From contig CAJQQM010000013.1 of NCBI GenBank assembly GCA_905480485.1, positions 1-60,948 on the forward strand: 60,948 nucleotides of DNA. Direction: 5' to 3'. Below, piece after piece: positions 32,432 through 38,892 of the stretch. The first letter of the stretch is position 1; every line of letters begins with the position of its first letter. This stretch comes from an uncultured Aureispira sp. GTDB lineage: Bacteria > Bacteroidota > Bacteroidia > Chitinophagales > Saprospiraceae. A program made the translations under genes and the position numbers. The notes under the pieces are model-generated. The model saw only the letters and a program-made list of their open reading frames with translations, did no database searches and was not told the origin of the DNA.

Positions 32432-32971
32432 ATGAAAAAAGCTTTGTTTTTAGATCGGGATGGCGTCATTAATCAACGAATTGTTGGTGCCTATGTTCGA
32501 AATATGCAAGAATTTCGATTTTTGGATGGTGTTTTGGATGCTTTAGCTATTTTGGCACGAAAATTTGATTATTGTTTTGTAGTAACGAATCAGCAAGGGG
32601 TTGCGAAAGGCCTAATGCATGAAACAGATTTGATTCAATTGCATGCACAAATGTTGCAAACTATTCATCAACATGGCGGTAGCATCGACAAGGCCTATTA
32701 TTGTACCTTGCACGAACGAGATAATCCTCCTTGTCGCAAGCCTAATACGGGTATGGGACTGCAAGCTAAGACGGATTTCCCTTCGGTTCATTTCGAACAT
32801 TCTGTGATGGTGGGTGATTCGATGTCTGACATTGAATTTGGATTAAATTTAGGGATGCAAACGGTTTTGATTGAAACAAAGAAGGACATTGATGTAGCTG
32901 CATTAGAACGGCTTAATTCCAAAATAGACCATCGTTTTGCTTCTTTATTAGAATACGCACAAACTTTATAA
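32432..32971 (+). CDS. gmhB: HAD-superfamily phosphatase, GmhB/HisB-N type
   Basis: A 179-residue HAD-IIIA phosphatase. I chose the ATG at 32432, which directly precedes the catalytic strand MKKALFLDRDGVIN, rather than the GTG 21 bases upstream. Motif 1 is DRDGVIN, motif 2 is VTNQQGVAKG, and motifs 3 and 4 are CRKPNTGMG and MVGDSMSDIEFG. The family member GmhB dephosphorylates heptose 1,7-bisphosphate for LPS core synthesis. The zinc loop of classical GmhB has Cys-His-Cys-Cys. Here I count only C-T-L-H and one Cys before RKP, so the loop may not bind zinc. Other heptose genes are absent from the window, so the substrate is uncertain. Confidence 0.82.
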   Translation: MKKALFLDRDGVINQRIVGAYVRNMQEFRFLDGVLDALAILARKFDYCFVVTNQQGVAKGLMHETDLIQLHAQMLQTIHQHGGSIDKAYYCTLHERDNPPCRKPNTGMGLQAKTDFPSVHFEHSVMVGDSMSDIEFGLNLGMQTVLIETKKDIDVAALERLNSKIDHRFASLLEYAQTL

Positions 32972-35444: not shown

Positions 35445-36905
35445 ATGATGTTGATAAAGATTATAGTGGCCGGCATTCTTGCCTGTATGTTTTGCCTAGA
35501 TGTTTCGGCACAATACAAAATTACCGTTTCGATCGATGGTTATCAGAACGATACCTGTATCCTAGGATATCAAGTAGGCGGAACGACTTATGTATCGAAT
35601 GCAGTTTATGAAAGAAACCAAAAAGGTGCTTTTGTATTTGAGGGAGAAACTACCTTGCTTGGAGGTTTGTATTCGGTATTAATCAAGCCTGACAATAAAT
35701 ATTTTCAGTTTATTATTTCGTCGGACGAAGCCCAAAAGGACCTAATCCTAAAGACCAAAATCACGGATAATGCTGCAGTAGAATTAACGGCTAATTTAAA
35801 GGTCGAAAACTCTAAAGATAATGAAGTATTTATGGCTTTTAAGTCTTTTCTAGGTCAGATGCGCCAAAAATCACAAAGTTTAGGCCGCCGTCGTAGTTCT
35901 GCTGAAGCCCAAAATGATACTGCTTTAATCCGTCAGCTTAGCGCTAAGTTTCTTGCACTAGATCAAGAAGTTGCTAGTTATCAAGATCAACTATTATTGG
36001 ATTATCCCGATTTATTAAGCCCTAAAATTATCAATGGTTCACGGCCACCTGTAGTGCCCGATACGATCAAAGACCGGGCGGCTGTTTTTAATTATTACAA
36101 AGCTCATTTTTGGGATAATTTTGATTGGTCAGATGCTCGACTTATTCGAACGCCTATCCTTAAGCAAAAAATGGATACCTACCTAGAGAAACTGACAATG
36201 CAAACGCTTGATTCGGTGGCTGCAGCTTGTGTTTATATGATAGACCAGTCTCTCAAGTACAAAAGCAAAGAAATGTTTCAGTATGTTGCAGTACAATTAC
36301 TCAATCAGTACGCCAAGCAAGAGGTCATTTGTATGGATGGAGTGTACGTAACGATTGCTCAAAAATACTACTGTTCCGGTTTGGCCTATTGGCTGGATTC
36401 GGCCAAAACAGCAAGTATTTGCGCGGACGCGCAACGTATGGCCCCCTTACGCTGTGGCAAAAATGCCCCGGAAGCAAGGCTTAAGAACATCAATGATTCC
36501 TCATATGTGAGTCTTTACAGCATTCGCAAGCCTTTTGTGGCGGTCTATTTTTGGGACCCTACCTGTGGCAACTGCTCCAAAATGTCTAAAAAGTTAGTGC
36601 CGGTGTACAACAAGTGGAAAGACAAAGGATTCGAAATATATGGGGTGTGTAGCAAGCCCTGGAAAGAAGTAGAAATGTGTCGCAAAAAGGTAGAAGACGC
36701 CTCGATAGAATGGCTAAATACCACCGATGACCCTTATCCCTTGGCTTGGGTCAAAAAATATTATGATTTAAGATCGAATCCTTATCTTTATTTACTCAAT
36801 GAAGATAAAGAAATTATATATAAAAGGCTTTCGGCAGATCAATTGGATGGGATTTTAGAAAGAGAATTTAATCGGCTAGAACAATTGAAAAACAAAAATA
36901 AATAA
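35445..36905 (+). CDS. Exported thioredoxin-fold protein, tandem paralogue B
   Basis: A 486-residue paralogue of the upstream gene, 26 bases away, so they are surely cotranscribed. It has a signal peptide (1-22, ending VSA), the same N-terminal DGYQNDTCILGYQ domain, the charged helical middle region and the thioredoxin fold with F-W-D-P-T-C-G-N-C-S-K. Long blocks are identical to paralogue A, for example VPVYNKWKDKGFE and KKVED, which marks a rather recent duplication. About nine Cys, including the redox pair, are kept in both copies. It is probably a periplasmic thiol oxidoreductase. Confidence 0.85.
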   Translation: MMLIKIIVAGILACMFCLDVSAQYKITVSIDGYQNDTCILGYQVGGTTYVSNAVYERNQKGAFVFEGETTLLGGLYSVLIKPDNKYFQFIISSDEAQKDLILKTKITDNAAVELTANLKVENSKDNEVFMAFKSFLGQMRQKSQSLGRRRSSAEAQNDTALIRQLSAKFLALDQEVASYQDQLLLDYPDLLSPKIINGSRPPVVPDTIKDRAAVFNYYKAHFWDNFDWSDARLIRTPILKQKMDTYLEKLTMQTLDSVAAACVYMIDQSLKYKSKEMFQYVAVQLLNQYAKQEVICMDGVYVTIAQKYYCSGLAYWLDSAKTASICADAQRMAPLRCGKNAPEARLKNINDSSYVSLYSIRKPFVAVYFWDPTCGNCSKMSKKLVPVYNKWKDKGFEIYGVCSKPWKEVEMCRKKVEDASIEWLNTTDDPYPLAWVKKYYDLRSNPYLYLLNEDKEIIYKRLSADQLDGILEREFNRLEQLKNKNK

Positions 36906-36931: not shown

Positions 36932-37540
36932 ATGAAACAATTATTCTTTTTTTTATTCCTGTTCGTAATTTGTGGCTGTAAGCCCTCTACCGAACCAGCT
37001 TCATCTAGCCAAGTATCTTCTATCAATTGAACCCTTTACCTGATACGTCATGCCAAATCGAGTCATGCAGATACTATATTAAGCGATTTTGATCGTCCTT
37101 TGATTAAAAAAGGAAAAATGGCATCAAAGGTAATGGGGCAGCAACTTATGCATCGAGGAATTCTACTCGACAAAATGCTAATTAGTCCTGCTAAGCGCTG
37201 CAAATCAACCGCCAAACGAATCGCCAAAGCCCTTAGTTTCGAAAAAGACAGTATTGTTAAAGATACTAGCTTGTATAAGTGTAAAACACAACAATTAATC
37301 ACGACCATTCGGCAATTGCCCCCTCAGTATAAATCAGTAGCGATTGTGGCACACAACCCCTCTCTTATTCAAACTGCCAATCATTTTCAGAAAGACACCA
37401 TTTTTACCGCTGTCCCTACAGCTGGGATAATCGCCTTAGAATTTAAGGCTGATAGTTGGCAAAATTTAGGACATAAACAAGGTGTTTTTTTGTTTTTTGA
37501 CTATCCGAAACGTCATAAAAATCAATTAGATGATTTTTGA
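36932..37540 (+). pseudogene. SixA-like histidine phosphatase lipoprotein, interrupted by an in-frame TGA
   Basis: A single reading frame holds a lipoprotein signal (MKQLFFFLFLFVICGC, then a Ser-rich linker) that stops at TGA 37028-37030. It is followed at once, in the same frame, by the phosphatase core T-L-Y-L-I-R-H-A-K-S-S-H-A-D. The core runs to 37540 and includes the second catalytic His in VAIVAHNPSLI. Without the TGA it would be a 202-residue SixA/RHG-type lipoprotein. No ATG, GTG or TTG lies between the TGA and the catalytic RHA motif. The first downstream ATG (37100) would lose that motif. Possible explanations are a recent nonsense mutation, a sequencing error or read-through. The flanking Cys-rich thiol genes and aminopeptidase P are intact. 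Confidence 0.72.
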
Positions 37541-37596: not shown

Positions 37597-38892
37597 ATGA
37601 AATATTCAGCCATCAATTCAACATTATTCTCCGAAAATCGGCGACGTTTTATCGCGCAAATGAAACCTAATTCAATAGCCATTTTTCATTCTAACGATCG
37701 GATGTCTAGAAATGGAGATTGTCATCATGCTTACCGTCAACATTCTGATTTATTTTATCTTTGTGGACTTGACCAAGAAGAAGTCGTTTTGGTGCTTTAT
37801 CCAAATTGTCCGAAGGGAAATAATTTTCAAGAGATTATATTTACCAAACAAACCAACGAACACATCGCTGTTTGGGAGGGGTACAAATATACCAAAGAAG
37901 ACGCTGCGGCAACATCAGGAGTTGATTCGGTGTATTGGCTAAACGAGCAGCAACCACTGCTTAATGAATTGATTTTATTAGCCGACACGATCTATGTAAA
38001 CAGCAACGAAAATGATCGGGCAGACGAGGATTATCCATCAAGAGATGTTCGTTATGCACTACAAATGAAACAGCAATATCCCGGTCATGGATTCGAGCGA
38101 TCTCAAAAAATTATGAAATCGTTGCGCATGATTAAATCGGATATTGAAATTGCCTTGATGCAAAAAGCTTGTGATATCACGAATGTGGCATTTCGTAAAG
38201 TATTAGCGACCACCAAAGCTGCTATGATGGAATATGAAGTCGAGGCTCATATTATTTACGAATTTATGCGTCAAGGAGCTAGTGGGCATGCTTACACTCC
38301 AATTGTTGCCGGTGGTGGGAATGCTTGTGTTTTGCATTATATCAGTAATAACGCGCCGCTTGTTCAGGGTGATTTATTGCTGATGGATTTTGGGGCAGAA
38401 TATGCCAATTATGCAGCAGATTTGAGCCGAACTATTCCGGTGAGTGGTCAGTTTAGCCCAAGGCAAAAAGCGGTTTATCAAGCCGTTTTGAATGTAAAAA
38501 AGGCTGCTGAAATGCTTTTAGTACCTGGCAATAATTTAGCAGATTATCACAAAGAAGTAGGGAAGTTGATGGAAGTAGAACTGATTGGACTCGGCTTGTT
38601 GAATGCAGATGAGGTGCGTAAACAAGATTCCGCTAAACCTTTGTATAAGCAATACTTTATGCATGGTACTTCTCATCATTTGGGCTTGGATGTGCACGAT
38701 TTGTGTGACCGATACAGCCCGCTTGCAGAAGGAATGGTCTTTACCTGTGAACCCGGCATTTATATTCCTGAAGAACAAATTGGGGTCCGGTTAGAAGATG
38801 ATTTAGTCGTTCGTTCGGGGCAGGCATTAAACCTTATGAGGGATATACCCATCGAAGTAGATGAAATAGAAACCTTGATGCAAGCTCGATAA
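37597..38892 (+). CDS. Xaa-Pro aminopeptidase (aminopeptidase P), M24 family
   Basis: A 431-residue cytosolic dimetal peptidase that removes the N-terminal residue before proline. The N-terminal AMP_N domain (about 1-140) contains HAYRQHSDLFYLCGL. The C-terminal pita-bread domain has the metal ligands Asp in LLLMDFGAEY and Asp in AADLSRT, His in GTSHHLGLDVHD, Glu in CEPGIYIP and Glu in GVRLEDD. Length and order match bacterial aminopeptidase P. It sits 56 bases after the broken phosphatase gene and ends before a convergent TPR gene. Confidence 0.95.
   Translation: MKYSAINSTLFSENRRRFIAQMKPNSIAIFHSNDRMSRNGDCHHAYRQHSDLFYLCGLDQEEVVLVLYPNCPKGNNFQEIIFTKQTNEHIAVWEGYKYTKEDAAATSGVDSVYWLNEQQPLLNELILLADTIYVNSNENDRADEDYPSRDVRYALQMKQQYPGHGFERSQKIMKSLRMIKSDIEIALMQKACDITNVAFRKVLATTKAAMMEYEVEAHIIYEFMRQGASGHAYTPIVAGGGNACVLHYISNNAPLVQGDLLLMDFGAEYANYAADLSRTIPVSGQFSPRQKAVYQAVLNVKKAAEMLLVPGNNLADYHKEVGKLMEVELIGLGLLNADEVRKQDSAKPLYKQYFMHGTSHHLGLDVHDLCDRYSPLAEGMVFTCEPGIYIPEEQIGVRLEDDLVVRSGQALNLMRDIPIEVDEIETLMQAR

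Follow-up and report, generated by a model that had tools for sequence, protein, structure and literature searches.

A single in-frame TGA interrupts a lipoprotein-type SixA-like phosphatase gene in a draft genome of an uncultured Aureispira sp.

The window, that is, the whole stretch of 60,948 nucleotides analysed here, carries on its forward strand one frame at 36932-37540 that consists of 32 codons, an in-frame TGA, 169 further codons and a terminal TGA at 37538-37540 (Table 1). The ATG at 36932, the TGA at 37028, the CGT codon of an RHA motif at 37046 and the terminal TGA at 37538 share a common frame. The original prediction described a signal-peptide part and a phosphatase part lying in the same frame, separated by this TGA alone, with the rest of the frame intact; translation bore out both points, the frame being open up to the terminal TGA. 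Its further claim, that no ATG, GTG or TTG lies between the stop and RHA, also holds: the interval contains CTG at 37040 and ATA at 37043, and the first conventional start 3′ of the stop is TTG at 37100, beyond RHA. The base immediately after the premature TGA is A. The signal part, read by eye only, consists of a hydrophobic stretch followed by CGC, which resembles a lipobox, and its acceptor cysteine is presumed to be residue 16. One example of a peptide from the phosphatase domain downstream of the premature stop is DTIFTAVPTAGIIALEFK.

Table 1. Positions in the window of the interrupted gene, its parts and its neighbours
Feature	Position	Strand	Remarks
Thioredoxin-like plus DUF5106 gene, first of tandem pair	33970-35418		Matches in G005 and G006
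Thioredoxin-like plus DUF5106 gene, second of tandem pair, upstream	35445-36905	+	Unbroken; matches in G006 (L103) and G005 (L108)
Lipoprotein-type signal part, truncated ORF	36932-37027	+	32 codons; hydrophobic stretch, then CGC; by eye
Premature in-frame TGA	37028-37030	+	Aligned codon is arginine in the 3 closest orthologues
SixA-like histidine phosphatase domain	37031-37540	+	RHA, SPAKR and HNPS stretches; open to terminal TGA
Aminopeptidase P type gene (AMP_N plus Peptidase_M24), downstream	37597-38892	+	Unbroken; beside the phosphatase gene in G006 (L103) and G003 (L110)

The domain downstream of the stop matched Pfam His_Phos_1 above the cut-off (E 4.1e-8, 33.6 bits against a cut-off of 21.7) and can thus be assigned, by profile, to the histidine phosphatase superfamily. 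Its match to the NCBIfam sixA equivalog model (TIGR00249; E 1.9e-15) reached 57 bits, below the cut-off of 74.5, and the domain is accordingly classed by similarity as SixA-like rather than filed as SixA. The best solved relative was PDB 2rfl_A, which is named a putative SixA (E 1.8e-9). We take the RHA, SPAKR and HNPS stretches to be catalytic. Taken together with the signal part, the gene probably encodes a membrane- or lipid-anchored SixA-like phosphatase. It resembles the SixA phosphohistidine phosphatase (TIGR00249; 2rfl) in superfamily, in the RHA and HNP stretches and in its comparable length, but differs in falling below the equivalog cut-off, in being interrupted by TGA and in having relatives with a lipoprotein-type N-terminus, with which the enzyme would sit outside the cytoplasm, whereas SixA is otherwise known from the cytoplasm. 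Among the literature matches listed, no paper was titled on a lipoprotein SixA. The genome contains two more His_Phos_1 matches, on contigs C125 and C254, the latter in a second SixA-like ORF of 34% identity without a lipoprotein-type N-terminus.

The phosphatase gene lies in a run of genes that is shared with relatives. In G006 the whole run is present on one strand, comprising a HAD-type phosphatase, an unknown gene, the thioredoxin-like pair, the phosphatase gene and the aminopeptidase. In G005 it is kept as far as the phosphatase gene, with no aminopeptidase match on the 11-kb contig, and in G003 the order is kept, with one thioredoxin-like match and about 10 kb between the other genes and the phosphatase gene. 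The phosphatase gene alone among the matched window genes has an internal stop, its matched neighbours being unbroken. The HAD-type phosphatase of the run in the window (32435-32968) matches the polynucleotide kinase 3′ phosphatase family. A tRNA was the sole hit when the window was scanned against Rfam; a plasmid search gave no match, and a promoter and terminator scan returned 2 promoter-like sites, fewer than the shuffle mean of 3.3, and no terminator.

A search for the domain covered 60 genomes including the source genome, of which 54 gave a match and 6 none; these matches mix orthologues with an unanchored paralogue. Elsewhere in the genus, 4 of 8 genomes have a lipoprotein-form gene, uninterrupted in each, with domain identities to the window of about 71-72% (G005), 65% (G006), 63% (G003) and 46% (G002). 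In three further genomes (G004, G007 and G008) a form starting at the domain was the sole one shown, and G001 has a domain-start form split across two contig ends. The post-stop part aligns to the latter portion of lipoprotein-type ORFs that are single and uninterrupted in relatives, and the alignment with the G006 protein crosses the TGA without a break; on these alignments the two-part frame is more than a chance arrangement. An alignment of homologues at the stop had been proposed as a check, and it places a sense codon, arginine, opposite the TGA in the three closest orthologues (L007, L008 and L009; L010 is more distant). Intact orthologues carrying a sense codon there are what would be expected of a recent nonsense pseudogene. 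Absence of the fused arrangement from all relatives had been named as a sign of a decayed pseudogene, and the arrangement was instead found fused in four relatives. When the 32-residue upstream part was used as a query, it matched the source genome alone among the 9 of the genus, and the signal part thus lacks sequence conservation; since L007, L008, L009 and L010 share its layout (a short hydrophobic stretch, a cysteine and a linker), it appears to be conserved in kind. A lipoprotein-like form of a SixA-like phosphatase was also seen in a genome of the same order (L013 in G041).

Broken genes were sought more widely with 568 mechanically called sister ORFs, each 120 codons or longer, taken from parts of G002, G003, G005 and G006, against 1,177,806 of the 4,211,539 bases (28% of the genome). 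The best match had at least 50% identity for 129 of the 568 ORFs, giving 47,207 aligned residues with repeats counted, as some targets were matched by several ORFs (129 ORFs in 113 start bins). Stops were found in 5 of the 129: one in the phosphatase gene and five in each of four others, which were dropped as shadow ORFs because a longer open frame lies on the opposite strand. The phosphatase gene thus remains the sole single-stop break in the sampled 28% (1 of 125), which argues against recoding and poor assembly alike. No frameshift splits were found in the screen at E 1e-20 or better, a threshold at which weaker pieces would be missed.

The age of the lesion was approached through the domain itself. 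In a four-genome comparison, 10 of 166 domain columns have the window as the odd one, compared with 16 for G003, 8 for G006 and 3 for G005; in three neighbouring genes the window is odd in 11 of 178, 20 of 266 and 19 of 473 columns. The domain, by these counts, does not appear to evolve faster than its neighbours, and the lesion therefore looks young. Fixing omega at 1 on the window branch cost 5.8, 6.0 and 3.8 log-likelihood units under three topologies. The test is weak, as synonymous sites are saturated, the window branch reaches or approaches its upper bound and omega rests on its lower bound; with this reservation, the result speaks against long neutrality of the window branch. The frame was constrained for most of its history, and a lesion that arose only towards the very end of the branch would stay invisible to such comparisons.

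The decoding machinery was then compared with what UGA reading would need. In the assembly, which is 96.1 complete, none of 7 selB matches and none of 8 tRNA-Sec matches exceeded the cut-off; the former are presumably other translation GTPases, and the latter are all Ser, Leu, Trp, Gly and Tyr tRNAs. Selenocysteine insertion is therefore unsupported in this incomplete assembly. The window gene shares with that system an in-frame UGA, but differs in that the aligned residue is Arg and not Cys and in that the RNA flanking the stop (37018-37080) shows no excess folding stability over shuffled sequences (z 0.68; stability equalled or exceeded by 154 of 200 shuffles). A suppressor tRNA is likewise unsupported: a UCA anticodon is absent from all 31 tRNA genes identified, in a set that is incomplete (150 of 278 candidates scored, and no tRNA-Ile among the 31). 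A 4-bp stem has been linked to UGA read-through in the part of PMC13092985 consulted. The tRNA-Trp found here has a CCA anticodon and an anticodon stem of five pairs in the minimum-energy fold and four in the centroid, and an altered tRNA-Trp is unsupported. Loss of RF2 is not supported, a prfB match above the cut-off being present (L052, G000:C18); read by eye, this gene retains a CTT TGA C frameshift site, closely preceded by AGGGAGG. Genome-wide recoding of TGA is not supported, given RF2 and the one single-stop case in the screen. The original prediction had called TGA a normal stop in this genome, and this is upheld by the terminal TGA of the phosphatase gene and by the stops of the 533 open frames in 1.18 Mb that reach 250 codons or more, of which 388 are TAA, 105 TAG and 40 TGA.

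A single very recent nonsense substitution is, in our judgement, the probable explanation of the TGA at 37028-37030. The substitution would lie in the linker that joins the lipoprotein signal to the phosphatase domain; ribosomes should stop after 32 residues, so that the gene would be inactivated or nearly so, and the phosphatase part would be made at trace level only, through ordinary TGA leakiness. Direct observation covers the stop, the openness of the rest of the frame and the uninterrupted relatives; we infer that the stop is present in the living cell and abolishes the product. Counted against a recent nonsense substitution are the odd domain columns, which are more numerous in the window (10) than in G006 or G005, though fewer than in G003. 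This reading is also weakened because a consensus error accounts for identical data. A one-base sequencing, consensus or binning error would leave an ordinary gene, intact in the cell, and we consider this possible but rather less likely: the draft nature of the assembly (272 contigs, completeness 96.1) and the presence of just one lesion in an otherwise apparently constrained frame are compatible with it, whereas the screen, which found no other single stops or frameshift splits in 28% of the genome, makes the assembly look accurate and thereby lowers this option without removing it. Of the three options first offered for the stop, a nonsense mutation and a sequencing error both fit, indistinguishably, while regulated read-through is left without positive support.

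Functional read-through, in which a leaky TGA would yield a little, perhaps regulated, full-length lipoprotein, appears very unlikely. Constraint on the domain is still apparent, and the A following the TGA provides a leaky context, but the TGA is absent from all four lipoprotein-form orthologues of the genus, so that the conservation of the stop expected of programmed read-through was not seen in these alignments. RF2, the CCA anticodon and stem of tRNA-Trp, the lack of UCA anticodons among the tRNA genes found and of selB or tRNA-Sec above the cut-off, and the unremarkable fold around the stop likewise speak against it. An argument in the part of PMC7918605 consulted, that in-frame stops may lower expression without creating a pseudogene, is in its favour. 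A more elaborate version, in which the TGA acts as a strain-level switch that cuts the dose of a maintained envelope phosphatase while basal read-through supplies the need, is more improbable still. Hardly any weight can be given to internal restart, that is, reinitiation at CTG 37040 or ATA 37043 to produce an unanchored cytoplasmic phosphatase. The CTG is in frame, the fourth codon past the stop and shortly 5′ of RHA, but CTG starts are rare, the product would be without the TLY residues that most relatives keep here, and C254 already carries a SixA-like ORF that lacks a lipoprotein-type N-terminus. Both read-through and internal restart have little in their favour besides the open, constrained frame.

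In the part of PMC7918605 consulted, short-lived in-frame stops are described as widespread among bacteria, and such stops in constrained genes are already known. The window gene resembles the cases described in that part in having one in-frame stop in a constrained gene with a sense codon in relatives, and differs from them in that its stop is known from one genome, where persistence is not measurable. The significance of the recent nonsense substitution, if it is one, lies mainly in annotation, as an unverified stop, specific to one lineage, in a gene that is intact in relatives. The SixA-like ORF on C254 might soften the loss of the interrupted gene. Mildly notable in its own right is that a SixA-like phosphatase occurs in this genus in a lipoprotein-type form.
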